Below, piece by piece: positions 40,861 through 63,178 of a DNA stretch of 64,000 nt. The stretch's first letter is position 1, and the number at the start of each line of letters is the position of its first letter. The stretch covers positions 806,001 to 870,000 of the forward strand of contig NZ_OU659204.1 in the NCBI RefSeq assembly GCF_915403165.1, in the 5' to 3' direction. The notes under the pieces were generated by a model. It did no database searches. It was not told where the DNA came from and was given only the letters and a program-made list of their open reading frames with translations. This DNA comes from Providencia alcalifaciens. Its GTDB lineage: Bacteria > Pseudomonadota > Gammaproteobacteria > Enterobacterales > Enterobacteriaceae. Position numbers and translations under genes: made by a program.

Positions 40861-42120
40861 ATGAAATCTCTAATTAATAGCATCTTAGCGTTATTCTTCG
40901 TGAAGATGCTTTCCCTTTCTGCTGTGGCAGATGTGGTTGAATTAAAAAACCTATTAAAAGATTCACTCGATAATGCCCCAGAAGTCCAAGAGGCTTATGC
41001 CAATTATCAAGCGGCACAAAGCAACGTTAGTGCAGCGGAAGCTGGGCATTACCCTGTCGTCAGTTTAATGGGAACTCAGCCTCTTGCGCAGCAACACAAA
41101 TACGAAAGTAACGCGATGGAATCAGGGTTTCACCTTGGTACTAAAGCGACAATGAACATTTATGCTTGGGGCGGAATTGAAGCGGGTGTAGACCGCGAAC
41201 AATCCAAGCAAAGTTACTATGAAAACCAATATATTCTTTCTCAAGAAGATATCAGTGTGCGTATTAGCCAGCTTTATTTGCAGGTTTTGCGCCACAAAGA
41301 AACTCTTGATGTGATTGATGAAAACCTAGCTCGCCATCATCAAATTGAAAAACAACTGACCACGATCGTTCAGCATGACTCAGGCCGAATGAGCGAATTA
41401 ACGCAAGTGAAAGCGCGCACCTTAAAAGTGGAAATGAGCCGCGCCGAAACAGAGCGAAACCTAAATTTAGCCCTGAGCCAATTATCGATTTTGACTCAGC
41501 GCCAGCTAACCGTTGACCAATTTGTTGACCCTTTCAGAGCGACAACTAGCGGTGCGATTTTAGCCAAATTTCAAGAAAATAATCTAGAAAATAACCCGAG
41601 TTATAAAGCCCAAGTGGCTGATGCCCAAAGCCTTGATGCCGAAGTTAAAGTGGCCAGCGCGATGAGAAAGCCAGCACTGAACTTGGAAGTTAATGCAACG
41701 CCAGATAATAGCGAAGTTTTCTTACGTGTTTCTTGGAATATTTTCGACCAAGCGAGCTATTACAGCCAAGCGCAGAAAGAGTATGCGCTGTCCGCAGCCA
41801 ATGAGCGTATTAAAAAGACATTTCGTGAAATTAAAGAGATGAGCCAATCTGCGGCGATCAACATGGCGCAAAGTGAAAAGCAAGGCAACATTGCGAAAGC
41901 CTATATCGCAGAGCAAAAAGTGGTGATCAGCAACTATGAAAAGCAATTCACGATCAACCGCCGCACGTTGATAGATCTGCTTGATGCGTATAACGAGCTA
42001 GCGAGCATTCAAACCAGCGCCGTTATTTTACAAAACGACTTCCGTGACGCGACACTCAATTACCTCAGTGTGCAGGCAAAAATGTCTGCATGGATGAACC
42101 AAGAATTGGCTTCCAGATAA
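40861..42120 (+). CDS. TolC-family outer-membrane channel of the adhesin T1SS
   Basis: 419 residues with an N-terminal signal peptide (ending near SAVADVV) and two copies of the TolC/OEP coiled-coil pattern. Indicators: LKDSLDNAPEVQEAYANYQAAQSN near the N-terminus and the second-half repeat NNLENNPSYKAQVADAQSLDAEV. It resembles the LapE/AggA-type channels that pair with BapA/LapA adhesins. It forms the outer-membrane tunnel, docking to the HlyD-type adaptor. Ends 3 bp before the ABC exporter gene. Confidence 0.88.
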   Translation: MKSLINSILALFFVKMLSLSAVADVVELKNLLKDSLDNAPEVQEAYANYQAAQSNVSAAEAGHYPVVSLMGTQPLAQQHKYESNAMESGFHLGTKATMNIYAWGGIEAGVDREQSKQSYYENQYILSQEDISVRISQLYLQVLRHKETLDVIDENLARHHQIEKQLTTIVQHDSGRMSELTQVKARTLKVEMSRAETERNLNLALSQLSILTQRQLTVDQFVDPFRATTSGAILAKFQENNLENNPSYKAQVADAQSLDAEVKVASAMRKPALNLEVNATPDNSEVFLRVSWNIFDQASYYSQAQKEYALSAANERIKKTFREIKEMSQSAAINMAQSEKQGNIAKAYIAEQKVVISNYEKQFTINRRTLIDLLDAYNELASIQTSAVILQNDFRDATLNYLSVQAKMSAWMNQELASR

Positions 42121-42123
42121 ATT

Positions 42124-44340
42124 ATGAATATTATTAATAACCTATCTTTAGTTACCAAGCGTTTGGGTTATACCCTTTCACCAGAAATTTTATTAGCACA
42201 AACTAAACGCACAGAATCGAAATCTTTCGATTATGCCTCGTTAGTGAATGTGTTGAATTCCCACCAATTTGATAATCAGATCATTGAAATTGATCTGCGT
42301 AAGATCCCGACGATTGCCACACCGTTTCTGGTGCTGTTGGCAAACAATGAATCGGTAGTGATCAGCAAAATTGAAGATGGCGAAAATGGACGCCATTTTG
42401 AGATCTTAACGGAAGAAGGTTTACGTCAAACATTAAGCGTGCAAGATCTGGCAATGAACTACAGCGGCTATAGCTGGTTTATTAAACGCAATATTCGCTC
42501 AGAAACTCGTTCAGAAATTGATAAATACGAAACCAGTGGTTTCTGGAAAGTGATTTGGCGTTATAAAAAATATTACTACCAAGTGATCATCGCATCGTTT
42601 GTGATCAACTTATTAGCCTTAATCAGCTCTCTGTATGTGATGAACGTGTATGACCGCGTAATCCCAAACCAAGCTTACGAAACCTTATGGGTACTGACCA
42701 TCGGTGTTGTGCTGGCAATTAGCTTTGAATTTCTCGCTAAAATGCTGCGATCTTACCTATTAGATATCGCAGGGAAAAAAGCGGACATTGTGATCAGCGC
42801 CATGCTATTTCACCGAGTGATGGGGATCCGTCTCGATAAGCGCCCAGCTTCATCAGGATCGTATGCCAACAATTTACGTGACTTCGAATCCATTCGCGAG
42901 TTTATGACCAGCGCGAGTTTACTCGCTCTCGTCGATCTGCCGTTTGTTTTGCTGTTTATTGGTGTGATCAGCATGATTGGTGGCTACTTAGCATTGGTGC
43001 CACTGACCATTATCCCGATTGTAGTGATCGCGGGTATTTTGATCCAAAAGCCATTGGCGAAAGGGATCAATGCCTCAATGAAAGAGACCTCTCAACGTCA
43101 AGGCTTAGCGGTGGAATCCATTGAAGGGATCGAAACCTTAAAACTGAATAATGCGGTGAATTGGGCCCAACAGCGCTGGGAAATGCTGACAGAGAAAACG
43201 GCATTTTCATCCATTGCAGTGCGTAATCTAACCAACTTTATGGTCAACTTCAGTGCGGCGATGCAGCAGCTTAATACTGTGGGTTTAGTATGTTTAGGGA
43301 CTTACCTGATCCATGCGAACGATGTGAACTCGCGCATTACGATGGGAGCGCTGATCGCTAGTGTGATCTTATCCGGTCGTGCGCTAGCACCGCTTGGGCA
43401 AATTGCAGGGCTAGCAACACGTTTCCAATCAGCGCGCATGGCATTAGCCGGTGTGCGAAATATCTTTAGCCGTCCTATTGAACGTGAAGATCATAAAAAA
43501 TACATTTCACCGACTGCAGTTCATGGAGCATTACGACTGGCTAATGTGACCTATCAATATAATAAAGATGGGCAACCCGCATTAAACAACATTAACTTAG
43601 AGATCAAAGCCGGAGAGAAAGTCGCGATCCTCGGTAAAATTGGTGGTGGGAAAAGTACATTACTGAAGCTACTGACTGGCTTGTATGAGCAACAGCAAGG
43701 GAATATCAGCTTAGATGATCTCGATATTCGCCAAATTGACCCGATTTTCCTGAGAAGCAAGGTGGGCATGTTGACGCAAAAGCCGCGTTTATTCTTCGGG
43801 ACTTTACGTGAAAACTTAGACTTGGCGCGTCTTGATGGCTATTCCAGCGATGACGATTTAGTACGTGCGCTCAAACGCTTCCAGCTCGATAAAATCATTC
43901 GTCAGCATCCAGCAGGGCTTGATATGCCCCTTGGTGAAGATGGTTTAGGGCTTTCAGGCGGGCAAAAACAGATGGTGGCACTGGCTCAGTTAACCCTGCA
44001 TAACCCAAATGTGGTGTTACTGGACGAGCCAACCACGGGCATTGATGTGGATACTGAAAAACTGGTGCTCGATGCGCTAGAAGCGTGGACGAAAGATAAA
44101 ACGCTGATCGTCGTCACCCACAAATTGCCAATTTTACGTTTGGTTGACCGTATTATCGTGATGGATGAAGGCAAAATCTTAATTGATGGTCCGAAGCAGA
44201 AAGTCTTAAAAGCTTTAGGACAAACGGAGCAAGCCGCTGGCACAGTTACGACGGATAAACCCGCTCCACAGCCTGCGCCACAAGTGCGAGTCGTTTCACA
44301 GGTTAGACACGTAATTAATAAAGAAGAAGGGGCGATTTAA
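42124..44340 (+). CDS. Type I secretion ABC exporter (LapB/LssB type)
   Basis: 738 residues. The first about 130 residues form a C39-peptidase-like domain without a catalytic Cys, used in this class to bind rather than cleave the substrate. A six-helix TMD (about 150-430) follows, then an ATPase domain with Walker A GKIGGGKST, signature LSGGQKQMVAL and Walker B VVLLDEPTTGID. The C-terminal tail is Pro/Gln-rich. It powers export of the adhesin. It sits 3 bp after the TolC-like gene and 1 bp before the HlyD gene, so the three form a tight unit. Confidence 0.93.
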   Translation: MNIINNLSLVTKRLGYTLSPEILLAQTKRTESKSFDYASLVNVLNSHQFDNQIIEIDLRKIPTIATPFLVLLANNESVVISKIEDGENGRHFEILTEEGLRQTLSVQDLAMNYSGYSWFIKRNIRSETRSEIDKYETSGFWKVIWRYKKYYYQVIIASFVINLLALISSLYVMNVYDRVIPNQAYETLWVLTIGVVLAISFEFLAKMLRSYLLDIAGKKADIVISAMLFHRVMGIRLDKRPASSGSYANNLRDFESIREFMTSASLLALVDLPFVLLFIGVISMIGGYLALVPLTIIPIVVIAGILIQKPLAKGINASMKETSQRQGLAVESIEGIETLKLNNAVNWAQQRWEMLTEKTAFSSIAVRNLTNFMVNFSAAMQQLNTVGLVCLGTYLIHANDVNSRITMGALIASVILSGRALAPLGQIAGLATRFQSARMALAGVRNIFSRPIEREDHKKYISPTAVHGALRLANVTYQYNKDGQPALNNINLEIKAGEKVAILGKIGGGKSTLLKLLTGLYEQQQGNISLDDLDIRQIDPIFLRSKVGMLTQKPRLFFGTLRENLDLARLDGYSSDDDLVRALKRFQLDKIIRQHPAGLDMPLGEDGLGLSGGQKQMVALAQLTLHNPNVVLLDEPTTGIDVDTEKLVLDALEAWTKDKTLIVVTHKLPILRLVDRIIVMDEGKILIDGPKQKVLKALGQTEQAAGTVTTDKPAPQPAPQVRVVSQVRHVINKEEGAI

Positions 44341-44341
44341 A

Positions 44342-45577
44342 ATGGATCAATATGGTAAAGCGCCAAAAGAGCATCGCACTTTTTCCAATGACTTTTCTCA
44401 CGATTTAGAATCGGTAATGAGAAAAGAGCGCAGTAACTTACTGTTTTTGCCTATTATCTTTCTGGCGCTGTTACTGACGATTTTTGTGATCTGGGCCTAT
44501 AACAGTAACTTAGAAGAGATCATTCGTGGGCAAGGAACCATTATTCCAAGTAGCCGTGAACAAGTGATCCAGAGTATTGACCCTGGCAATATCCAAGAGA
44601 TGTACGTTAAAGAGGGGGATATTGTCGAAAAAGGGCAAATTTTGCTGAAGTTGGATGATGTGCGCAGTATGGCATTATTGCGTGAAAGCCAAGCGCGAGT
44701 GCAAAACCTTGAAGCCATCTCCGCGCGTTTGCAGGGAGAATCTCGCAACGAAGTTCCTGATTTTTCAAAGATAGTTGATCAAGAATTAGTCGCGCGTGAA
44801 ACCAACGCCTATAACGCGAAAAAAACGCAGCGTGACCAAGCTATTGCAGGCTTACGTCAAAGCAAAGGATTATTAGACCGAGAAATTGCTATCACCAAAC
44901 CGCTGGCGAAAGAAGGGTTAGTTTCCAATGTGGAAATTCTGCGTATGGAAAGACAATCGGTTGAATTAGCGACACAAATTAACGAACGCATGAATAACTA
45001 CCTTGCGGAAGCAAACGCTGAATTGGTGAAAGTGGAATCGGAGCTAGATCAAGCGGAAGAGTCGATGAGTATGCGTGAAGACCCTGTCGCGCGTTCGGAG
45101 ATCCGCGCACCCGTTCACGGCATTGTAAAAAACATTAAGATCAATACTATCGGTGGCGTGGTGAATACGGGGCAAGACATCCTTGAGATTATTCCCCTCG
45201 ATGACAAATTAATGGTGGAAGCTTATATTCGCCCACAAGATGTGGCTTTCTTAAGACCGGGAATGCCAGTGGTGGTTAAAGTGACTGCCTATGATTACGC
45301 TATTTATGGTGGTTTAAATGGGGTAGTGAAATTAATCAGCCCAGACACCTTAAGTAATGATACTCGTCGCAGTGAGTTAAAACTCAATCCAGATGAGACG
45401 TTCTACCGCATTCTTGTCGAAACGGATACCAATTACCTGTTAGATAAAAATAACCATAAAATGGAAATTATTCCGGGTATGGTGGCATCGGTGGATATTA
45501 AAACGGGCGAGAAAAGCGTTTTTGATTACCTGATTAAGCCTATCACGCGGATGAAACAGGCGATGACAGAGCGTTGA
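44342..45577 (+). CDS. HlyD-family membrane fusion protein of the adhesin T1SS
   Basis: 411 residues. A short cytoplasmic N-terminus, one TM helix (about 34-54), a lipoyl half (GNIQEMYVKEGDIVEKGQ), a long alpha-helical hairpin (about 105-245) and the second lipoyl/beta-barrel part (IRAPVHGIVKNIKINTIGG, then the HlyD C-terminal signature near VKVTAYDYAIYGGL). It links the inner-membrane exporter with the TolC-like channel. Last gene of the unit, with a terminator after it. Confidence 0.93.
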   Translation: MDQYGKAPKEHRTFSNDFSHDLESVMRKERSNLLFLPIIFLALLLTIFVIWAYNSNLEEIIRGQGTIIPSSREQVIQSIDPGNIQEMYVKEGDIVEKGQILLKLDDVRSMALLRESQARVQNLEAISARLQGESRNEVPDFSKIVDQELVARETNAYNAKKTQRDQAIAGLRQSKGLLDREIAITKPLAKEGLVSNVEILRMERQSVELATQINERMNNYLAEANAELVKVESELDQAEESMSMREDPVARSEIRAPVHGIVKNIKINTIGGVVNTGQDILEIIPLDDKLMVEAYIRPQDVAFLRPGMPVVVKVTAYDYAIYGGLNGVVKLISPDTLSNDTRRSELKLNPDETFYRILVETDTNYLLDKNNHKMEIIPGMVASVDIKTGEKSVFDYLIKPITRMKQAMTER

Positions 45578-52772: not shown

Positions 52773-52814
52773 AAATCATTGATATCAGTTTAGACTGCTT
52801 TTATGAATGAAAAC

Positions 52815-52840
52815 GCCCCCTAAAAAGATGCTTAGAGGGC
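52815..52840. terminator. Terminator at the end of the fimbrial operon
   Basis: GCCCCCTAA/TTAGAGGGC stem with one mismatch. On the minus strand GTTTTCATT follows, so it more likely ends the leftward fimbrial transcript than the GNAT gene. Confidence 0.65.
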
Positions 52841-52891
52841 ATGATTACGTAGCGATTAAGTTAGGCTGTAGGTGGTATAAATACAACGGCA

Positions 52892-53149
52892 TTACAGATT
52901 AATCGGTATTATTACCGAAGAATTTCTACGCTCTAAAAAGTAATTTAAATCGCACTGAAGTACATTGGCAAAAATACATAATCGGTGGATCGTGAAATTT
53001 TGAGTTCCGCGCTCATAGCGAGAGATCTGTTGTTGGCTTAAGCCGGTTTTCTTACCAAGAATACTGGCACTCCAGCCTAATAATAGTCGGCGTTTACGAA
53101 CTTTTGCACCAATATCGGTATTGGAAATTTGGTTGTCGTAGAGAGTCAT
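52892..53149 (-). CDS. MrpJ-like HTH regulator at the end of the fimbrial operon
   Basis: 85 residues dominated by an HTH_3/XRE domain: IGAKVRKRRLLLGWSASILGKKTGLSQQQISRYERG, with the recognition helix in LSQQQISRYE. Small HTH proteins of this type close many Proteus and Providencia fimbrial operons; MrpJ represses flagellar genes when fimbriae are made. A GAGGA ribosome binding site lies 7 nt upstream and the gene starts 33 bp after the membrane protein gene, so it is probably cotranscribed. Whether it represses motility here is inferred. Confidence 0.8.
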   Translation of the reverse strand: MTLYDNQISNTDIGAKVRKRRLLLGWSASILGKKTGLSQQQISRYERGTQNFTIHRLCIFANVLQCDLNYFLERRNSSVIIPINL

Positions 53150-53182: not shown

Positions 53183-54571
53183 TTATGCAAATGAGAAAAT
53201 ATTGGTGTGAAAGAAAGATTGACCATTAAATAAATTTAATCCAATAATAAAAACGCTTAGGCCAATAATAAAAGTGCTAAAACTAAATAATAAAGATAAA
53301 TGCTTGTTAATATAGAAACTGGATTGTTCTTTTAATGGGAATGACGCATCTGCAAATGATAAAAACAGTATAATAATTCCCCAGTGTAATACTGATTGTA
53401 AAAATGGGTGCTCTAAGTTGCTGTTAATAACCACAGGTGTTAATGCTAATACCAAGGATATGGAATATCCGTTACCATTTTTTTTGTATTTAATAATTGA
53501 CTGGTAAATAACATATATTCCACCTGTTATTAGTAATGACATGAAAATAAGGTTAATAAACCCGCCAGTCATAATCCAACGTAATATCTCATTATAAACA
53601 TGTGGCACAATATAATTTTCTGAACTTAAAAATGGGAGCTGGTTTTTCTCCATGCTCGCATTAAGCATTAAAGGTTGTTCCCAAACTTCAGCTGAAGGGT
53701 AGATAAACAGTGAAATAGAAAACCGTAACATTTGCTTAAGGTGAAAGCGGTTGATTATCTCATTGTCGATATACTTTGGGCATAGCTGAATAAGGTAAAC
53801 TCCAATAAATACAGCAACAGCAATAATGAAATAGCTGGCACTCACTCTTACTTTATTTTTTTGATAAAACAAGCAGATAAAAACAAATGCACAAACTGCA
53901 AAACTCAGTGTAGTGGTGATAGATTGTAAAACAACCAGTGTCACCGTAAACAAGAAAATGCAAAGGCTTAATAGCGTGATTCGGCATTTCTCTTGAATGA
54001 ACGATGCAAGTTTAAATTGCGATAACACTAGGGTCATCAACGAAAACATGCAGCTCATTGCCATGTTAACCGACAAAATGGTAATTTGTTGCGTCAAACC
54101 ATATGATCGCATATCAGTTGCAAAATAAAAAATAGTGGTTTCAAAAAAGTATTGATAAATAGTAAATAAACACTGAATAACATTAATCGCGATAAAACAA
54201 TAAATACAAAAAGATTGAATTAACCACTTCTCTCGTATTTGCAATCCGACAATATACAGTATGACTCCTGCACTAATACCAGACCAATACCAAAATATAA
54301 TGTTATGACTTTCTTTTATATAAAAAAGGTTGATGCTTAATATGGCTAATGCTAAACAGAAACACATTGCAGGAATAGTAATGAAAATTCGATTTTTTCT
54401 ATAAAACACTGTAAATGCAATGATGGAAATGATTAATGCAATCGCTAACCAGCTAATAATATTTTGAGGCAGCGATTGCCTTAAGCTACCTAAATTATCA
54501 ATATAAATTATGCTGGCGAGATTCCAAATAATAAAAATACTAATAAATACAGCACGAGAAAGCATAATCAT
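53183..54571 (-). CDS. O-antigen ligase/PglL-like polytopic membrane protein in fimbrial operon
   Basis: 462 residues with about 11-12 predicted TM helices and one large extracytoplasmic loop (about 270-345). The loop end IVPHVYNEILRWIMTGGFINLI resembles the Wzy_C motif (H-N-x-x-L...E-x-G), with a two-residue insertion between His and Asn. The segment NSNLEHPFLQSVLHW resembles the Glu-Pro-Phe-x-x-Ser-x-x-His signature of PglL-type O-oligosaccharyltransferases. These enzymes move lipid-linked sugars onto protein or lipid A in the periplasm. It starts 39 bp after the tip-adhesin stop and ends 33 bp before the HTH gene. Family similarity is remote; a polysaccharide polymerase is the main alternative. 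Confidence 0.6.
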   Translation of the reverse strand: MIMLSRAVFISIFIIWNLASIIYIDNLGSLRQSLPQNIISWLAIALIISIIAFTVFYRKNRIFITIPAMCFCLALAILSINLFYIKESHNIIFWYWSGISAGVILYIVGLQIREKWLIQSFCIYCFIAINVIQCLFTIYQYFFETTIFYFATDMRSYGLTQQITILSVNMAMSCMFSLMTLVLSQFKLASFIQEKCRITLLSLCIFLFTVTLVVLQSITTTLSFAVCAFVFICLFYQKNKVRVSASYFIIAVAVFIGVYLIQLCPKYIDNEIINRFHLKQMLRFSISLFIYPSAEVWEQPLMLNASMEKNQLPFLSSENYIVPHVYNEILRWIMTGGFINLIFMSLLITGGIYVIYQSIIKYKKNGNGYSISLVLALTPVVINSNLEHPFLQSVLHWGIIILFLSFADASFPLKEQSSFYINKHLSLLFSFSTFIIGLSVFIIGLNLFNGQSFFHTNIFSFA

Positions 54572-54610
54572 AAAATTTTACTGCATGTTAATTATAAAAT
54601 AGCATGTTAA

Positions 54611-55669
54611 TTATAAATAAGTCGCAATTAACCACGCGTTACCGGTGTATTTTCCTGGCTCAGCATCTAGCCCATAAAGGTGGCTTTCGATTTCAATATT
54701 TTTCACTTTATCAATGGTAGTCTCGATGGTTTTACCCCGTTGATTACTTTCTGCATCGTACAGTGATAACTCAGAGTAAATCGTGTTATTACCTGACTTC
54801 AGCGGCACACGTTTTTGCGGATCGTTATCCATAACGTAATCTAAGGCAAATTTCACTCTAACCCCCTGACTTCTATCACATTGATAGGTCGCAGTACGGG
54901 TTTGTTTACTATCAAATTCAATGGCATCCAATGTATTGTGGTTAATATTTAGATTATCAATATTGGATTTGCAGTTTGATGGGTAGTTAATTACCGACTG
55001 AGTTAAATCTAGTTTTACACTCGCTTTATCCGCGGGAACGAACACATCAGGTGTACCTGGATATTGGAACATTCGGGTATAGCCTGCAATCATTGCAGGA
55101 GGGATGACAACCTTGCCATCTATCGGAATATCTTTTACATAAATACGTACTTCAAATGGGAATTGAACGGTGAAGAACCCAGCATCTAATGGCCCCATTT
55201 CTTCGGAAGAACATCCACGCCCAGAAATGTTTTTCCAACCCTGAGTAATTCCATTGTCTGAATACAGTGTGAAGTAAGTATTTGCATTAATTTTATAAGC
55301 GGTGAGCCCCTTAATGTTAAAGCCCGCTTCTGGCATATAAGCAAAAACACGATGAAAGGCATAATTCCATGCCAGTCCGTTTTGGTAGTTACCCGCTAAA
55401 AAATTCACTTTGCAATATACAGTACCGTAAGGTTGCGATGAATTAGCATCGATCACGATGCCCTCTTTGTTTGGTGGAGCGACAGAATAGTATTTTGCAC
55501 CATCGCTACCAATGGTCGGTGTGCTCGCGATGACCGAGTTATTAGAGACAAGATTCATTCTATAGCCACCACCACTGGATGAGTAGCGAGTTAACCCATG
55601 AGACACTTGGCTATATAAAAACAGTGACATAAACACTGCTATTAACGAAATTTTGGATGTTTTTTTCAT
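54611..55669 (-). CDS. Two-domain fimbrial tip adhesin
   Basis: 352 residues, about twice the size of a pilin. Signal peptide ends near QVSHG (residue 25). The N-terminal half (about 26-210), with cysteines in TVYCKVNF and GRGCSSEE, is presumably the receptor-binding lectin domain. The C-terminal half (about 215-352) has the pilin-type Cys pair (YPSNCKS and YQCDRSQG) and an incomplete Ig fold completed by the next subunit. Position after the minor subunits matches MrpH-like or FimH-like adhesins. No conserved receptor motif is recognised. Confidence 0.85.
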   Translation of the reverse strand: MKKTSKISLIAVFMSLFLYSQVSHGLTRYSSSGGGYRMNLVSNNSVIASTPTIGSDGAKYYSVAPPNKEGIVIDANSSQPYGTVYCKVNFLAGNYQNGLAWNYAFHRVFAYMPEAGFNIKGLTAYKINANTYFTLYSDNGITQGWKNISGRGCSSEEMGPLDAGFFTVQFPFEVRIYVKDIPIDGKVVIPPAMIAGYTRMFQYPGTPDVFVPADKASVKLDLTQSVINYPSNCKSNIDNLNINHNTLDAIEFDSKQTRTATYQCDRSQGVRVKFALDYVMDNDPQKRVPLKSGNNTIYSELSLYDAESNQRGKTIETTIDKVKNIEIESHLYGLDAEPGKYTGNAWLIATYL

Positions 55670-55684
55670 TGTCGTTACCTAACT

Positions 55685-56197
55685 TTAAAGATAATCAATC
55701 ATCACTGACAGTGCCGCATTAAACGGGCCGACTTCAAGTGTTTCGGGCACTTGATTCGTAACTAATTGTGACTGCAAGGTCAATGTGGCGGTGTCACCAC
55801 TCACTGACGGGAAAATGGGCTCCCATTTCAGTAGATTGATAGCGGTATTTCTATTGGCTTGGGAAAAGCGGATCCCTAAGCCTTGAATCGTGGTGCTTAA
55901 TACCGTTTCGTTATTAATCGTGAGGGTGGATCCCTCTTTTGGGGATAAGTAAACCCGTAAATTTTTGCGCAGATCGCACTGTTTAATTAGGATCCCAAAG
56001 TTGTATTTTTCTTCGGTTAAGCGGTCTAACGCCACATTTTGAAAATTCACGTACAGCTCTTTATCGCCATTTTCATTGGTGATCACACAGGATGGACGCA
56101 CCAATGTGGTTTCCAACGTAATTAAAATATCAGCCAGTGAAAAGCTGCTCATTAGTAGGCAAATCGCCCCTAAAAAACCGGATATTTTCATCTGCAT
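55685..56197 (-). CDS. Minor fimbrial subunit
   Basis: 170 residues with signal peptide (cleavage near FSLA, about residue 22). Pilin features: RPSCVITNENGDKE with the first Cys, KQCDLRK with the second, and a C-terminal hydrophobic-aromatic end (ALSVMIDYL) with the penultimate Tyr used as chaperone/usher donor motif. Probably a tip or adaptor subunit next to the adhesin (MrpG-like by position). 15 bp before the adhesin gene. Confidence 0.82.
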   Translation of the reverse strand: MQMKISGFLGAICLLMSSFSLADILITLETTLVRPSCVITNENGDKELYVNFQNVALDRLTEEKYNFGILIKQCDLRKNLRVYLSPKEGSTLTINNETVLSTTIQGLGIRFSQANRNTAINLLKWEPIFPSVSGDTATLTLQSQLVTNQVPETLEVGPFNAALSVMIDYL

Positions 56198-56201
56198 TCT
56201 C

Positions 56202-56738
56202 CTACTGGTAGTCCAGATTGAAAGTGACTAAGGATGAGAAACTCCCTGTTTTGAGTCGTCCGTTAAAGGGCTTTTGCGCATATACCCCAAACTGGAGTGG
56301 GTTAATAGAGCCTTTTCCCGATTCCGTGACGGTACTGATATCAATCGGGGTATTAAATTTCAAAGGTTGAGCATTCTTGCCATCAGTTAACGCGAGTAAC
56401 ACATTGGACTCGCCGGTCGTTTTCAAATAGGTGACGCCGTTATGGGTTTCAGTATCTTGAGTGTTTAGCGTAATTTTGATGGTTTTATTTAATGCCGCCG
56501 TTGAGCAATCGACGATATCCAACTGAAAAGGTTGAACATCAGAGCGCCCCAGATTTTCAAGTTCAGAAAAGCGCAGACCCGATAAGTAAACCGTTTTCTT
56601 CGTGTCATCGTCAGATAAGCGACAACCAATAGGCACCAGCGTCCCTTCAAAATAGACAGATAAACTATTTGCCAAGCTGCCGTAGCTGGTAAATAACAAG
56701 CTACTCATGCCAACCATAAGTGCGAATGTTTTAGTCAT
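56202..56738 (-). CDS. Minor fimbrial subunit
   Basis: 178 residues with signal peptide (to about SLANS, residue 25). The Cys pair sits in VPIGCRLSDDD and IVDCSTAAL, and the C-terminus LVTFNLDYQ has the pilin beta-zipper pattern. Likely an MrpF-like structural minor subunit. Its start overlaps the preceding 121-residue gene by 8 bp and its stop is 4 bp before the next pilin gene, so translation is tightly coupled. Confidence 0.82.
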   Translation of the reverse strand: MTKTFALMVGMSSLLFTSYGSLANSLSVYFEGTLVPIGCRLSDDDTKKTVYLSGLRFSELENLGRSDVQPFQLDIVDCSTAALNKTIKITLNTQDTETHNGVTYLKTTGESNVLLALTDGKNAQPLKFNTPIDISTVTESGKGSINPLQFGVYAQKPFNGRLKTGSFSSLVTFNLDYQ

Positions 56739-57096
56739 AAATCATCTCCAAACGGCGTGCTGAATTCTCGGCTGGAAGTAAAAAGGTCATACTCTTATTT
56801 GCCTGCGGTTTTGAGAAAACATATTGCTGACCTGCAAATTTCAACGTGAATGGCGTCCACGGTTGGTTATAAGTACGGGTGGCACAATGGGCATAACTCA
56901 CTGTAAATTGATAAACAGGTTCATTGACATGGTTGACCGCTCTTGTCATCGTCACATTGGGCTGGCAAGGCGTTATGAGAAAACGCGCATGAACATAAAC
57001 AGTGCCTGTTGTTTCCAATAATGAGGGTTGCGATGGCGTTTCTGCCAATACAGGCATGGCGAACATGAGAGATAACCCAAAGTGATACAGTTTCAT
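56731..57096 (-). CDS. Short fimbrial subunit-like protein
   Basis: 121 residues, clearly shorter than the other subunits. Signal peptide MKLYHFGLSLMFAMPVLAET (cleavage about residue 18). Two cysteines (FLITPCQPNV and YAHCATRT) are placed as in pilins, but the C-terminal pilin strand is reduced (ENSARRLEMIYD). It may be an MrpE-like subunit or a terminator/anchor subunit; the sequence alone does not decide. It overlaps the following gene by 8 bp. Confidence 0.7.
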   Translation of the reverse strand: MKLYHFGLSLMFAMPVLAETPSQPSLLETTGTVYVHARFLITPCQPNVTMTRAVNHVNEPVYQFTVSYAHCATRTYNQPWTPFTLKFAGQQYVFSKPQANKSMTFLLPAENSARRLEMIYD

Positions 57097-57123: not shown

Positions 57124-57852
57124 CTATGGTGTGACTGTGCACTGCGATGCTTGGCACTTAAACGCCAGTGAAGGTTTTCCACCATAATCATTGATATAGG
57201 TGAGATATGGCGTTGCGAATTTCGCTGATTTTAGGTTATGTGTTGATTTCGGTGGCACCATAACGGCATCAAAATCACTCTGCTCAGACTGCTTTTGGCT
57301 GTTACCAATGCCGATAACGGTCAGATAAAAACTTGTTGGGTTATTTAGCTGATAACCATTGGCAGTTGGGGTTAACGTCACCTGTTTTGTCCACTCTTTT
57401 TTGCTATCAGCCACAATCGCTTCTGGACGATAAAACAGTTTTACACGGCTTTGCAGGGCGATTTGTAGAACACCTGCTTCTGTGGATTTCGGTGGAATTT
57501 CACGCAAGTTATAGTAAAACAGAGACTCTCTATCTTGAGGTAACTTACTGATATCTGGCGCAGAGCTTAAACGAACTAAGCTGGTGGATTTTGGCTCCAT
57601 ACGCTGAATGGGTGGCGTCGCGATAATTGGGCCAGCTTCCAATTTTTTCTCTGCCGCATCTTCCAACCATGATTGTGCTAAGTAAGGCAATTCAGGGTTA
57701 TCATTGCGAATAGTGATGTTAATAGACTGCTGATCACCATCAAAAATAATACGAGTACGATCCAGTGTGACTGCGGCGTAAGTGGTGCCCATTGCACCGA
57801 TAGCGGTCAATAAGACACTGGTGCGAAGTAAATTAAAAATATTTGATTTCAT
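57124..57852 (-). CDS. Periplasmic fimbrial chaperone
   Basis: 242 residues of the PapD/FimC family. Signal peptide (to about TYAA, residue 27), then VTLDRTRIIFDGDQQSINITIRN with the conserved Arg in the donor-strand cleft (TRII). The signature RESLFYYNLREIPP and the cleft Lys in LQSRVKLFYRP follow. Two Ig domains; the second ends with a Cys pair near the C-terminus (FKCQASQCTVTP), probably a disulfide. It delivers subunits to the usher encoded 12 bp upstream. Confidence 0.95.
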   Translation of the reverse strand: MKSNIFNLLRTSVLLTAIGAMGTTYAAVTLDRTRIIFDGDQQSINITIRNDNPELPYLAQSWLEDAAEKKLEAGPIIATPPIQRMEPKSTSLVRLSSAPDISKLPQDRESLFYYNLREIPPKSTEAGVLQIALQSRVKLFYRPEAIVADSKKEWTKQVTLTPTANGYQLNNPTSFYLTVIGIGNSQKQSEQSDFDAVMVPPKSTHNLKSAKFATPYLTYINDYGGKPSLAFKCQASQCTVTP

Positions 57853-57864
57853 TTAAATTGTTTC

Positions 57865-60354
57865 CTAATGACAAATTAATACAGGGTAGCTTTCTGCACT
57901 GTTTTTAAACTCAGTGACTTGCGTGCTGCATTGCAATTTATTTCCCCAGTAAAGGTTAAGCAGGTCATTTGGCATCACGCCGACAATCCATGTGATCCCT
58001 TGCTCACCCACAATACCGAGCTCAATGTTATTTTTATTACGCACACTGGCACCAAAGGGTGGGTAAGTGCCATCAGCCAGTTTTAAACGGGCAAAGGTTT
58101 TTTCCCCTTGAATAACATTAAGGCTGCGATAACCGATGGCCCCACGAGTTAATGTGGCTTCGGTAACACTCTCTAACGCTTCGATATTGTTTGGTAATTT
58201 ACTGGTATTAATTGATGCTGTTGTTTTGCGATAGCTACTCACGTTAGGGAGCACAGTTAAGCCAAAGCGGTTAGTTTTATAAACACCGCCGTTTAATGGC
58301 ACGTTGCTCGCTCCCGGGGTTTCAACGACTAAGCGTGTTCCACCATAGGCTGCCTGATGCAGTGCGATTCCTTCTTTAACCAATGTGATCCCACCGTTAA
58401 TCGACCCACCAATGGTGTGGTACTCGTTGGGAACATAACTGGCATTGGCCGAGAGTGATGACGTTGGGAAATTTTGGCTCAAATAACCACTAAAACTGGT
58501 TTGTGAGTCTTGGTACTGTCCCGTTTGATAACCCACATTCAGGTTATAACTACGCTGATCGTTGTAGCCGCTATAGCCCACGTTATGGGTTGAAGAGCGA
58601 CGTCCATTTTGGTCGCGTGTATAGCCCTCAGAGAAACTCATGCTGCTGCCCATAGTAAGGGGAACGGTGACATACAACGTAATGGCATCATCCTGATATC
58701 CCGCTCTTTTTGAACGTGTTGCAGATGCTGTTAAGCTGATATTTTTTAATCCTAAATAGGCAATATTGAAGGCGGTGTTGATATAGGCCCCAAATTGCTC
58801 TTCCGTTTGGCTATTCCAATACGTGTTGTACTGGTAGTTTCCACCCAGTGAGAACGCATCAAAATATTTATTAATATTGACCTGATAGCTCTCTTTATGT
58901 GCTTGGGTTTCAATCCCTGTACAGCGTTCGTCCAACGTTTGCTGTAATGAACGATAGGTTTCATCCGAGAATCGATAACCTGCGAAGGTAATGTCGGTTC
59001 TCGCCTCATCAAACGATTTTGAGTAACTTAAACGGTAACTGCGCCCTGTTAATGTGTTGCTGAGTAACTTTGCATGGGACTGTGTTATGTCAAATGACAA
59101 GCTCCCGAAGGTAAATAAGTCACGCCCAAAACCGGCTGAAAATGCTTGGTAGTTTTTGGATAAAATCGAACCACCATAAATAGACCAAATATTATTAAGT
59201 CCATAAGAGAGTTCACCCGAAGCGGTCATATCCCCTTCAAGGTGACGCCCATCGTAACGAGGTTTACCAACGGCAAACTTATAGCGAACTTGCCCAGGGC
59301 GCGTTAAATAAGGCAGCGCCGCGGTAGTTATGCTGAATTTCTGTTCTTCACCATTTTCTTCACGCACCGTGACATCTAAGGTTCCACGGATTGAGCTATC
59401 CAACGTTTGGATCTGGAATGGACCTGCGGGAACAGTAGTCTCTAAAACAATTCGGTCATGGCTTTTGACGATCACCGTAGCGTTAGTTTGTGCAATCCCG
59501 ATGATCTCAGGTGCATATCCCGTCAATTTTGGCGGTAGCATGTTTTCGTCGGTTTCTAATGACAAACCGGTAAATTGCCAAGAGTCAAAAATGGCGGAAT
59601 AGAAATAGTTTTCCCCCACCGTGAGAACCGAGGCGATATTCGTTAATGAACGATAAGCATATAAACGGCTGAATATGGCATCGCTATATTCATTGTTATA
59701 GTTACCCGATGATTTACGATAGTTCGCTTGGTAATCCCCACGTAAGCGCCACGCACCGAGGTTTAACCCTGTGGTTCCGTTCGCAGATAAATAGGATTCT
59801 TTTGTTCCGCTATCTCGACGGGTAAAGGAGCCGGTCAAGGTGTAGTCGAGTAAGAAGCCGTTAATACCATCTTCCCAGCGAGAAGGTGGCACCCAGCTAG
59901 GATCGGTATATTCCAGATAACTTTGTGGGATCAAAATTGTCAGTGTTAATGTGGATAAATCCACGCTCATGGTACTGCCTTCAAGCGCAGACAAATCGAT
60001 ACACTGATCGTTATCGCGATATTTAATTAAGCGAATAGCTTCTGGTTTTAAGCCGAGCTGATCTGCAATGGTTGCTGGAACACAGACAACGCTAAATAAT
60101 GAATCTTCAGCAGAAGTTGGTGCACCCACCGTAATATCGCGGGCATTACCCAAACGTTCATTATTGACTTTAATCGTTAGATGATAATTTCCAGGCATAA
60201 CAAATCCGGCCTGAGAAAACTGGCTAAAGTCAATATTCTGAGTATCTTTGGTATCAAGCATATCTGTATTAAATTCAACAGAAAAAGCGACAGTAGGAAT
60301 ACTGGATAAGCAAGATATAATAATTAACTGGTGAAAAATATTAAATTTAGCCAT
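57865..60354 (-). CDS. Outer-membrane fimbrial usher
   Basis: 829 residues of the FimD/PapC family. Signal peptide (to about VAFS, residue 25); N-terminal chaperone-binding domain FNTDMLDTKDTQNIDFSQF; a 24-strand barrel with a plug domain (about 230-330); and two C-terminal Ig-like domains, ending with a Cys pair (LQCSTQ and PVLICH). The usher assembles and exports the fimbria. It starts 27 bp after the second pilin gene. Confidence 0.96.
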   Translation of the reverse strand: MAKFNIFHQLIIISCLSSIPTVAFSVEFNTDMLDTKDTQNIDFSQFSQAGFVMPGNYHLTIKVNNERLGNARDITVGAPTSAEDSLFSVVCVPATIADQLGLKPEAIRLIKYRDNDQCIDLSALEGSTMSVDLSTLTLTILIPQSYLEYTDPSWVPPSRWEDGINGFLLDYTLTGSFTRRDSGTKESYLSANGTTGLNLGAWRLRGDYQANYRKSSGNYNNEYSDAIFSRLYAYRSLTNIASVLTVGENYFYSAIFDSWQFTGLSLETDENMLPPKLTGYAPEIIGIAQTNATVIVKSHDRIVLETTVPAGPFQIQTLDSSIRGTLDVTVREENGEEQKFSITTAALPYLTRPGQVRYKFAVGKPRYDGRHLEGDMTASGELSYGLNNIWSIYGGSILSKNYQAFSAGFGRDLFTFGSLSFDITQSHAKLLSNTLTGRSYRLSYSKSFDEARTDITFAGYRFSDETYRSLQQTLDERCTGIETQAHKESYQVNINKYFDAFSLGGNYQYNTYWNSQTEEQFGAYINTAFNIAYLGLKNISLTASATRSKRAGYQDDAITLYVTVPLTMGSSMSFSEGYTRDQNGRRSSTHNVGYSGYNDQRSYNLNVGYQTGQYQDSQTSFSGYLSQNFPTSSLSANASYVPNEYHTIGGSINGGITLVKEGIALHQAAYGGTRLVVETPGASNVPLNGGVYKTNRFGLTVLPNVSSYRKTTASINTSKLPNNIEALESVTEATLTRGAIGYRSLNVIQGEKTFARLKLADGTYPPFGASVRNKNNIELGIVGEQGITWIVGVMPNDLLNLYWGNKLQCSTQVTEFKNSAESYPVLICH

Positions 60355-60380: not shown

Positions 60381-60938
60381 TTAGTCGTAACTTACATTGA
60401 ATTTAATCGTGGCAAAGTAATTTCCGGGTTCAATCTCATTATTAATTGTGTCAATTTCTGTTTCATATTTCAAAAAGCTTATTTTTGTTTTGCTATCAAA
60501 GTAAATAGCGCTGTTTGAAATAGAATACGATTTATTCGGAGTGACTAAATTGTTATTGGTGTCATAAATATAGACAATGACACCATCCGTGGGACCTGAT
60601 AGTTTTATTGCGTTATTGTAGAGGTCACTATTGGCAAAGAATTTAATTTTTATACCTTTTTTATTATCTTTGTCATACTCGCTAATACAGTTGTTCAATT
60701 TAATATTAAATGTTTTTCTATTATTATTTTTTGCTTCTTCTGTATCGATATTATTTTTAGATACAAGGTCATAATTAATATATTGGTATTGGCTATCTGT
60801 TTCTATTGAGCAGGGCGCAGCAACAATATATCCACGCATAACAGTTTCACCACGAATACCGCCATCAACCGTATATTCCGCATTTGAAATAAAAGGAGCT
60901 AATAATAGCGTTGACCATAAGAAAGATAAATTTCGCAT
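60381..60938 (-). CDS. Second pilin/minor fimbrial subunit
   Basis: 185 residues from the start at 60938 (MRNLSFLWSTLLLAPF), chosen because AAGGTT lies just upstream and a signal peptide follows; a reading frame to 60974 overlaps the stem-loop and is unlikely. Cysteines in VAAPCSIETDS and LNNCISEY are in pilin positions, and the C-terminus FATIKFNVSYD has the pilin donor strand. By position it corresponds to MrpB, a possible rod anchor or terminator. Very AT-rich, Asn- and Lys-rich coding. Confidence 0.82.
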   Translation of the reverse strand: MRNLSFLWSTLLLAPFISNAEYTVDGGIRGETVMRGYIVAAPCSIETDSQYQYINYDLVSKNNIDTEEAKNNNRKTFNIKLNNCISEYDKDNKKGIKIKFFANSDLYNNAIKLSGPTDGVIVYIYDTNNNLVTPNKSYSISNSAIYFDSKTKISFLKYETEIDTINNEIEPGNYFATIKFNVSYD

Positions 60939-60954
60939 AATGAACCTTTTTATT

Positions 60955-60972
60955 GGGAGGGTTTCCCCTCCC
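60955..60972 (-). other. GAAA-tetraloop stem-loop after the major pilin gene
   Basis: On the minus strand GGGAGGG-GAAA-CCCTCCC, a perfect 7-bp GC stem closed by a GNRA tetraloop, followed by AATAAAAAGG rather than a T-run. Such structures between the major pilin and downstream genes stabilise pilin mRNA or partly stop transcription, giving excess major subunit. Confidence 0.8.
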
Positions 60973-60979
60973 ATAAAAA

Positions 60980-61531
60980 TTATTCGTAAGTGATTTTGAA
61001 GTCAGCGATAGAGTTGAATTCACCTTCAGTTACTGGAGTAGCAGCATCAACACGTTTTGCTAATGCAGTAAATTCCAGAACGTTTTCACCTTGTCTGTTA
61101 CGAATTTGGTTCAGTACAGATTTAGCTTCATCAAATTTAAAATCTTTAATTTGAATACCAACGTTATTCGCAGTACCTGTTACGCCTAAGAATTCTTTAT
61201 TAGTACCCACGTAGTTTTTACCACCGAAAGTGATTTTGATATCTTTAACTGCAATCCATTTACCTTCAGTATCCTTACTGAATTCGTCGAAGTTACACTC
61301 TTTTAATTTAATGGAGATATCTTTCTCTGCTGCATTACCTGCTTCTAAAGAAGCACGAGACAGTTGACCAAATGGAACTTCTTGTTTGGTGCTTTCAGAT
61401 TCGATATTACATGGGGAGTTAACAACTTGACCGCTAAAGTGTAATTCACCCGTGTTGCCGCTAGCTAAAACAGATGCAGAAAGAGTAGAAGCTGCAAATA
61501 AAACAGCAACAGATAATTTATTTAATTTCAT
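60980..61531 (-). CDS. Major fimbrial subunit (pilin A)
   Basis: 183 residues. Signal peptide of 23 residues (ending SVLA), then GNTGELHFSGQVVNSPCNIES, the classic N-terminal pilin motif with donor strand and first Cys; second Cys in LKECNFDEF; C-terminus SIADFKITYE with penultimate Tyr. MrpA/FimA-type rod subunit. First gene of the fimbrial operon, behind the about 290-bp promoter region and before the stem-loop. Confidence 0.93.
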   Translation of the reverse strand: MKLNKLSVAVLFAASTLSASVLASGNTGELHFSGQVVNSPCNIESESTKQEVPFGQLSRASLEAGNAAEKDISIKLKECNFDEFSKDTEGKWIAVKDIKITFGGKNYVGTNKEFLGVTGTANNVGIQIKDFKFDEAKSVLNQIRNRQGENVLEFTALAKRVDAATPVTEGEFNSIADFKITYE

Positions 61532-61887: not shown

Positions 61888-62370
61888 TTAAATTGTGCAA
61901 ATAAAAAGAGGGGAAAAATTTTCTTCAAAAATATAGTTTTTTTCACTCAAACGCTTTATGTTAACAAAATAAATCTGCCCCTCTTGTGGAATACCCCGTA
62001 TTTTTATTTTATTTTGAGCCTGGTCATTAGGATCAATAACAACCCGTTCGACTTGTGAGAAAAAATGCCCGCCTTGGTAGACATATTTCATGTAAAACTT
62101 GCGAGCAATAACATAACTTTTACCATCATTGTTGATGGTTCCATTCATGACAAAGGTATGATGCTCAGGGTCATTCTCATTTGGAATAATGCTAAGTAGG
62201 TAATAGCCTTTTAAGTCTGAACGGCTGTCTGATATATCAATTTTCAATGTTGCTCTGCAACTGGGGACAATGGCGGTGCTGTTTTTATAATAAACATAGC
62301 TACTAATGAAGACTAAGATGGTTGAAATAATCAGTAGCCAAAAAGCCCTGACAGATTTCTTATTTGACAT
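61888..62370 (-). CDS. Single-TM periplasmic partner of the CadC-like regulator
   Basis: 160 residues with a short basic N-terminus (MSNKKSVRAF), one TM helix (about 9-27) and a periplasmic domain of about 130 residues with two cysteines (VPSCRATLKI and the C-terminal FICTI). No enzymatic motif is seen. Start at 62370 (ATG); an in-frame GTG at 62382 is the alternative. It overlaps the regulator gene by 11 bp, so the two are coupled. Architecture recalls ToxS, which stabilises ToxR, but sequence similarity is not evident; the role is inferred. Confidence 0.7.
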   Translation of the reverse strand: MSNKKSVRAFWLLIISTILVFISSYVYYKNSTAIVPSCRATLKIDISDSRSDLKGYYLLSIIPNENDPEHHTFVMNGTINNDGKSYVIARKFYMKYVYQGGHFFSQVERVVIDPNDQAQNKIKIRGIPQEGQIYFVNIKRLSEKNYIFEENFSPLFICTI

Positions 62371-63178
62371 AAAAATTCTCACAACTCACTGTTGTACTAT
62401 CTTTGGGGGTGTTAGGACAATAAGATAAAAATAAAAAGTTATCATAGAGATTTTTATCATTCGTGACGATCCCGACATTGTAATAAAATAACGTAGCCGG
62501 TTTTTTGCAATCAATATTTAATCGAGTTAACTGGTTCTGTAAATCAGTAAAACTAATCGTCGTCATATCGGGTTTATGGTAGCTATTAATATAGCGTATG
62601 CTGCACTGGTCAATGCGACCCACTTCAGGGTATTCTGTTCGTGTAGCAAAAAAATAGCTTTTAAAAAGATATAGTAAGCAAAAAATAATAATCACAACTA
62701 AGGCTAGCTCAATAAAACGGTTATTGAGAATGTAACTTTTTTTCTTTACTGTTTGTGCTTTTTCTTTCGGTGCATTTTCTATAATCGGTGTTTTCAGTGG
62801 CTCACTAAGTAATATTTCTAGAGGTTCTTCTTGCTGGGTATCTTGATTTAATTCTGATGATAACGACTGCAACTGCGCATTAAGCTTGATACCAACTTTA
62901 GGTATAGTCGTAATTATTTCACCATCACAAAATGAGGATAAATGGCGGCGTAAAACAGAAATGCTACTGTTGAGATTATTATCGGATGCAACTTGGTTAT
63001 GTTCATCCCACACTCTGCTTAATAATGTTTCACGATCTAAAACCTCACCATTATTTTGCACTAACACCAATAATAAGCGGTTTAGTGTGGTAGTCAGTTT
63101 AATTGCATCGTCGATATTATCGCGATATAACAACCCCTGATGGCTGTCATAAATAATATTATTAATAAGATATTTCAT
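62360..63178 (-). CDS. CadC/ToxR-like membrane-bound transcriptional regulator
   Basis: 272 residues. An N-terminal OmpR-type winged helix (about 1-100) has LTTTLNRLLLVLVQNNGEVLDRETLLSRVWDE and SSISVLRRHL as helix-turn-helix parts and IITTIPKVGIKL as the wing. A charged linker, one TM helix (about 155-177) and a 95-residue periplasmic sensor with cysteines (IDQCSIRYI, NIDCKKPA, LSYCPN, VSCENF) follow. The four cysteines could form disulfides that sense the periplasmic state. It is upstream of the fimbrial operon on the same strand and is its probable regulator (inference). Confidence 0.82.
   Translation of the reverse strand: MKYLINNIIYDSHQGLLYRDNIDDAIKLTTTLNRLLLVLVQNNGEVLDRETLLSRVWDEHNQVASDNNLNSSISVLRRHLSSFCDGEIITTIPKVGIKLNAQLQSLSSELNQDTQQEEPLEILLSEPLKTPIIENAPKEKAQTVKKKSYILNNRFIELALVVIIIFCLLYLFKSYFFATRTEYPEVGRIDQCSIRYINSYHKPDMTTISFTDLQNQLTRLNIDCKKPATLFYYNVGIVTNDKNLYDNFLFLSYCPNTPKDSTTVSCENFYVK

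Follow-up and report, generated by a model that had tools for sequence, protein, structure and literature searches.

Chaperone-usher fimbriae, CFA/I among them, are major adhesins; type IV pilins and general periplasmic proteins are the targets for which PglL-type O-glycosylation is discussed. In one survey, 21 of 31 PglLs adjoin type IV pilin genes (PMC3643930), and a 2025 review describes TfpO/PilO, TfpM and PglS as oligosaccharyltransferases (OTases) whose genes adjoin those of their own filament targets (PMC12645811). The close linkage of OTase gene and target gene is what these systems share with the locus described here; their targets are type IV pilin-like, and we liken them by gene arrangement, not by sequence. 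A fimbrial pilin bearing an O-linked glycan is also on record, with CfaB of CFA/I O-glycosylated at T74 and T78, although the part of that report consulted names no fimbria-encoded OTase (PMC5000012). We found no description of an OTase linked to chaperone-usher fimbriae in the open-licence literature, in keeping with the first-pass annotation of this locus, which did not recall the arrangement as described; 'fimbri' and 'chaperone' are absent from the main text of the 2025 review, and 'fimbri' and 'usher' from the consulted sections of PMC3643930.

The window, a 64,000-nucleotide stretch of Providencia alcalifaciens DNA, carries an intact open reading frame with an ATG start on its minus strand (53183-54571), encoding a 462-aa polytopic membrane protein. 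It is separated by 39 bp from the MrpH-like adhesin gene on its 5' side and by 33 bp from the MrpJ-like regulator gene on its 3' side, reproducing the spacing of 33-39 bp first given for a gene between tip adhesin and regulator. Around it, an usher, a PapD-type chaperone, pilins and the adhesin form a single strand block, ordered as two pilin-like genes, usher, chaperone, a 121-aa protein, two pilins, adhesin, PglL-like gene and helix-turn-helix (HTH) regulator:

62360-63178, minus strand: winged-HTH-like regulator that adjoins the operon and is conserved there (orthologue annotated helix-turn-helix)
61888-62382, minus strand: small protein that adjoins the operon and is conserved there (orthologue annotated FidL-like)
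60980-61531, minus strand: pilin-like subunit pilA (position and conserved order; orthologue annotated fimbrial protein)
60381-60974, minus strand: pilin-like subunit pilB (position and conserved order)
57865-60354, minus strand: outer-membrane usher (Pfam; best NCBIfam match PRK15284)
57124-57852, minus strand: PapD-type chaperone (Pfam; best NCBIfam match StfD)
56731-57096, minus strand: 121-aa operon protein pil1, without a Pfam or NCBIfam family match
56202-56738, minus strand: fimbrial subunit pil2 (PF00419)
55685-56197, minus strand: fimbrial subunit pil3 (PF00419)
54611-55669, minus strand: MrpH-like adhesin gene, 352 aa (MrpH_C just over cut-off; in 15 of 15 loci, broken in one)
53183-54571, minus strand: PglL-like, predicted WaaL-fold, polytopic membrane protein, 462 aa (reading frame, alignments, model, profile comparison)
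52892-53149, minus strand: MrpJ-like HTH regulator, 85 aa (HTH_3; found in all 15 loci)
52813-52842, minus strand: weak terminator-like hairpin 3' of the last operon gene (11 such sites in the region versus 7.3 expected in shuffles)

The usher and chaperone lie far above their Pfam cut-offs and the regulator passes HTH_3 (E 2.2e-12), with the adhesin passing MrpH_C narrowly (27.6 bits against a cut-off of 27, E 3.2e-6). The MR/P fimbria of Proteus mirabilis shares the MrpH_C adhesin domain and the MrpJ-like regulator at the operon end, and its mrp operon is not known to contain an OTase gene. Counting both strands, terminator-like sites in the region are hardly more numerous than in shuffled sequence; five fall on the minus strand, and the only intergenic one among these is that 3' of the regulator. 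In the gap between the adhesin and the OTase-like gene, a stretch of some 16 bases is directly repeated (TTTATAATTAACATGC, window 54582-54616). The 121-aa protein is the fastest-evolving operon gene in the window clade (dN/dS 0.146), with 31-55% identity outside that clade. Elsewhere in the window, positions 40861-45577 hold a type I secretion-like set (TolC-like, ABC permease/ATPase, HlyD-like) upstream of tkt, epd, pgk and fbaA, whose HlyD-like and ABC permease/ATPase genes are annotated as such in a P. alcalifaciens plasmid 2 record (L150).

Both segments behind the original Wzy_C-like and PglL-like labels are present in the protein, PHVYNEIL at residues 323-330 and NLEHPFLQSVLHW at residues 385-397. 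As formal family matches the labels were not confirmed: the protein falls below the Pfam cut-offs of Wzy_C (E 0.01, 16.1 bits against 31.7), PglL_A and Wzy_C_2, and an NCBIfam scan returned no match. Across the 15 orthologues described below, searches at E up to 0.1 matched Wzy_C in six, Wzy_C_2 in seven and PglL_A in none. The kinship itself stood up, and we assign the protein to the PglL/WaaL type because of its orthologues, profile-profile comparison and fold. A profile of the 15 orthologues aligned to one of PglL-type proteins over 430 columns (hhalign 100%, E 1.5e-40), which together with the tree below shows shared descent, and homology to the PglLs of Neisseria, Acinetobacter and Vibrio extends across most of the membrane part. 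A mixed profile of orthologues and canonical members matched two relevant solved structures, WaaL 7tpg and the oligosaccharyltransferase 9rmk, a match that the canonical members may carry.

An AlphaFold model built from 13 sequences (pLDDT 65.8, pTM 0.73) predicts a WaaL-type fold, with loop 265-328 scoring under 50 and the loop that holds the active site poorly modelled. Its top Foldseek match in the PDB was WaaL 7tpg_B (probability 1.00, TM 0.42/0.47, E 4.8e-3), with none at E up to 0.001 and a second-ranked match at probability 0.18; the outcome that would have counted against the first-pass annotation, a structure without any GT-C/Wzy-like fold, was therefore not obtained. The WaaL match also favours an ordinary O-antigen ligase or polymerase that sits in the operon by happenstance, but its linkage tracks the fimbria and the gene is missing where the fimbria is missing, while a separate gene in the genome exceeds the Wzy_C cut-off; we rejected an ordinary WaaL/Wzy on that fimbrial linkage and that separate gene, and regard it as very improbable. 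Unlike WaaL, the window protein has a fimbrial operon context and PglL-type sequence kinship, and equivalents of WaaL R215 and H338 are not conserved in it. As with PglL, its gene adjoins a likely filament target, but that filament is of the chaperone-usher kind and no type IV pilin is involved.

Comparison across 24 Providencia genomes revealed orthologues of the 462-aa gene in 15 (the window's own included), at 53-97% identity to the window protein. In all 15 genomes the gene has an identical position within this chaperone-usher operon, so the first-pass proposal survives the survey of relatives on which it had been staked; because that position is held down to 53% identity, the placement is more than chance, and the PglL-like gene is a conserved member of this operon. 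An adhesin of at least 55% identity occurs in the same 15 genomes, broken by stops in one of them (G011). The other nine Providencia genomes contain only adhesin paralogues at 34-40% identity (six genomes) or no adhesin (three). Gene order is identical across the 15 loci apart from two gaps: L043 yielded no recognisable pilB, and L041 lies on a contig that stops short of the regulator pair. The window genome encodes 18 ushers, and the PglL-like protein matches only one of its genes, itself.

Several irregular gene copies came to light alongside this survey. The broken adhesin gene of G011 (L035 5390-6442) has several stops and its OTase-like gene is open; an OTase-like region in the plasmid 2 record (L150 9001-10389) is annotated as two small hypothetical genes; and an in-frame stop interrupts one of the window genome's 18 usher genes (G000:C1:293246-294916).

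Pairwise rates revealed that the window gene is under strong purifying selection. Within the window clade, dN/dS of the PglL-like gene is 0.052 (median of 15 pairs), between those of the usher (0.035) and the adhesin (0.069). Another clade, comprising four genomes, gave 0.126 for the PglL-like gene, 0.056 for the usher and 0.112 for the adhesin. Truncation and the loss of active-site residues described below might suggest a decaying, functionless remnant, but the frame is open in 15 of 15 orthologues and dN/dS is 0.05 to 0.13. We rejected a pseudogene on these two observations and consider it exceedingly improbable.

A second, longer relative of the window protein is found in six of the 24 Providencia genomes and ends a different chaperone-usher operon in all four loci examined (L044-L047, 552-564 aa). 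Two of these four proteins were scanned; both pass Wzy_C and Wzy_C_2, and one passes PglL_A. Located 3' of the second-fimbria OTase in L044-L047 are genes for a DsbA-like protein, for a protein that matches lipid A acyltransferase below threshold, and for an ABC/HlyD-like export set.

Active-site positions were compared in the numbering of N. meningitidis PglL (PMC3643930), with which positions counted on the 9rmk chain agree; 'Y405' is our label by counting and lies outside the list in the consulted sections of that source. According to those sections, R224, R298 and H349 are important in WaaL and conserved in PglL, and Q178, N180, G316, G318, H400, E404 and P406 are PglL-only residues (PMC3643930). 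The window protein has Ile at R224, Tyr at H349 and no Arg at the aligned R298, and at the seven PglL-only columns it reads Q, T, V, E, N, E and P, keeping three of seven. Two sites are central to what follows:

53594-53602, minus strand: codons H324, V325 and Y326, aligned to PglL H347, S348 and H349 (sequence and alignments)
53408-53410, minus strand: codon H388, aligned to PglL Y405 (sequence and alignment)

Some of these losses characterize all 15 orthologues, hereafter the short lineage, in which most of the C-terminal domain is absent, R224 is Ile or Val in every member, and G316 is lost in 15 and G318 in 14. At R298 they have Leu or Ile in one alignment and Lys or Asn in another; R283 is invariant and close to that position, and it might stand in for R298. 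Other changes are confined to the window's six-species clade, where H349 is Tyr (five) or Phe (one), position 405 is His, H400 is Asn and N180 is Thr. The remaining nine short-lineage orthologues keep H349, Y405 and N180.

Canonical proteins were compared at the same positions. Among 40 linked proteins (from the 39 loci surveyed below plus Enterobacter vonholyi L086), H349 is present in 39, the exception being the broken end of L133, R298 in 40 and R224 in 32; among 15 other canonical proteins the counts are 15, 15 and 12. R224 is thus not Arg in 8 of 40 linked and 3 of 15 other canonical PglLs, and in the second Providencia fimbria all four proteins retain H349 and R298 and have Leu at 224. 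Pfam searches at E up to 0.01 on 15 canonical proteins (12 from the linkage survey and three second-fimbria Providencia proteins) matched Wzy_C in 15, Wzy_C_2 in 15 and PglL_A in 14, with cut-offs compared for the first of the 15, which passes all three profiles.

Might the window protein nevertheless work as an O-oligosaccharyltransferase and glycosylate the adhesin or a pilin, with H324 or H388 replacing His349, perhaps through a His/Tyr exchange between 349 and 405? The changes at H349 and Y405 do look like an exchange between two positions, H388 occurring exactly in the six species without H349, and the equivalents of Q178, N350, E404 and P406 are retained as in PglL, as is H324 at position 347. 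Strong selection and the retention of H349 in nine orthologues also fit a working enzyme. However, position 405 may also be Trp, Phe, Leu, Met or Ile in canonical proteins, so His there is no proof of an exchange; Tyr or Phe replaces H349 in six of six window-clade species, against the near-universal His of canonical proteins; and the protein is missing GxG as well as most of the C-terminal domain. We judge a working enzyme unlikely. The first-pass suggestion that the gene glycosylates a fimbrial subunit or the adhesin is accordingly doubtful for the window strain, because its protein has lost PglL residues at aligned positions, GxG and the bulk of the C-terminal domain; for the canonical relatives it is a fair hypothesis, by analogy.

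To place these proteins in context, we surveyed 246 genomes of Enterobacteriaceae in the GTDB sense, a family wider than that of NCBI, and found strong PglL-type matches (E under 1e-50) in 32. The survey contributed 37 loci, to which an order-wide search added two (G339 and G419); a broken-gene fragment in G555 (E 5.6e-56) is not among the 39. Of the 39 loci, 34 have an usher gene no more than 8 kb away (32 of 37 counting family-survey loci alone); the exceptions are L090, L094 and L099 together with L133 and L136, the last two cut by contig ends. By contrast, ushers were found within 8 kb of none of 13 WaaL-type loci from the same family, hand-picked among its weaker matches, and none of eight PglL loci from other families. 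The resulting statistics (Fisher 1.3e-8 versus WaaL-type controls and 4e-6 versus other-family PglLs; binomial 3e-29 at an assumed 10% chance rate) overstate independence because a number of the 39 loci are closely related to one another, and shared ancestry could partly explain the linkage. Canonical PglLs recur beside chaperone-usher operons across the family.

The arrangement of these loci bears on whether the two partners act together. With Enterobacter vonholyi included, the OTase is downstream on the usher's strand in 28 of 40 loci, often with a gap under 100 bp, divergent in five, upstream on the same strand in two and without an usher in five. Klebsiella aerogenes offers an annotated example; the Hafnia alvei OTase is annotated as two pieces, and that of Serratia marcescens is divergent from the operon. 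PRK15284, the Stf usher model, was the best NCBIfam match of all five linked ushers scanned. Distances between OTases and between ushers correlate (r 0.82, n = 41; r 0.71, n = 29, 0 of 5,000 permutations), as expected from shared descent of entire loci; from 49 loci with an usher over 600 aa and an OTase over 440 aa these tests used 41, then 29 after removal of the short lineage and near-copies. Distances to the 'nearest fimbrial gene' are too large where the adhesin went unrecognised.

PglL genes and chaperone-usher operons might instead occupy common variable sites on chromosomes or plasmids and move together without acting on one another, as the divergent and upstream OTases and the presence of several loci on plasmids would allow. 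We find this improbable, given the predominance of close downstream placement on the usher's strand, the position of the Providencia gene inside the operon in every orthologous locus and the absence of ushers from control loci. Among 13 matching plasmid records, the four examined (H1, H2, H4 and H13) all have an annotated usher beside the OTase; DNA-level comparison with E. coli genomes gave no match. In Scandinavium goeteborgense, the OTase is followed by a nucleotidyltransferase-like gene (annotated glycosyltransferase), a WavE-family gene and a polysaccharide-type ABC exporter. On plasmid pSg66741_1 of that species (L154 9001-17429, same replicon as L132), glycan synthesis/export-like genes, including a Wzm-like permease and an ABC ATPase, lie 3' of the operon and OTase. 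This plasmid is the single case of glycan genes beside the OTase, which is not general among the linked loci.

Phylogenetic analysis, from which the fragments L119, L133 and L136 were excluded, recovered the short lineage as a single clade (100/100) with a very long stem (2.94 changes per site). This clade falls inside a 27-row group (99/100) whose other twelve members are Enterobacteriaceae proteins too, ten of them with an usher nearby. Support for its closest sister is lacking (86/65), and with so long a stem the placement is possibly a long-branch effect. Because H349 was lost along a branch of no great length (0.24 versus 0.21 for the neighbouring clade), the tree suggests that the functional shift occurred on the short-lineage stem, preceding the loss of H349. 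The low dN/dS of the window clade indicates that selection keeps the gene despite that loss.

We also looked for acceptor segments, scoring stretches in which at least 15 of 20 residues are Ser, Thr, Pro, Gly or Ala. These occur in 0 of 98 ORFs from short-lineage operons, 2 of 23 from the second Providencia fimbria and 11 of 172 from other linked operons, lists that contain near-copies and some non-fimbrial ORFs. The adhesin of the second fimbria has an inter-domain stretch rich in these residues (L044, L045). Among the ORFs of all three sets there is no convincing acceptor segment, and the signal is too weak to name an acceptor.

Ordinary catalysis by the window protein is unlikely, and a changed or lost activity serving the same fimbria is therefore the best reading. 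Specifically, we place just on the likely side of even the proposal that the gene is a fimbria-dedicated descendant of a PglL-type O-oligosaccharyltransferase whose activity has been changed or lost. The canonical linked enzymes probably glycosylate a co-encoded adhesin or pilin, by analogy with the OTase/target adjacency established for type IV pilins, and would transfer a lipid-linked glycan in the periplasm before or during assembly. The window lineage would descend from such an enzyme that was stripped, along the stem of the lineage, of several active-site residues and the bulk of the C-terminal domain, and its present role for the same fimbria would be an altered one. In the window clade, which lacks the conventional His349, the site may be rearranged or the protein may be non-catalytic and serve, for instance, to retain a lipid-linked glycan or the adhesin at the inner membrane.

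For the family as a whole, we see a little under an even chance of a widespread O-glycosylation system dedicated to chaperone-usher fimbriae, in which linked PglL-type enzymes glycosylate the adhesin or pilins and one Providencia branch has become a fimbrial factor, kept by strong selection, whose active site is unconventional or absent. If the consistent PglL-usher partnership is true, many fimbriae may carry glycans, which would affect receptor binding, antigenicity and assembly. The Providencia branch is a natural experiment in its own right, in which the catalytic-site His has been lost and strong selection with the fimbria retained.
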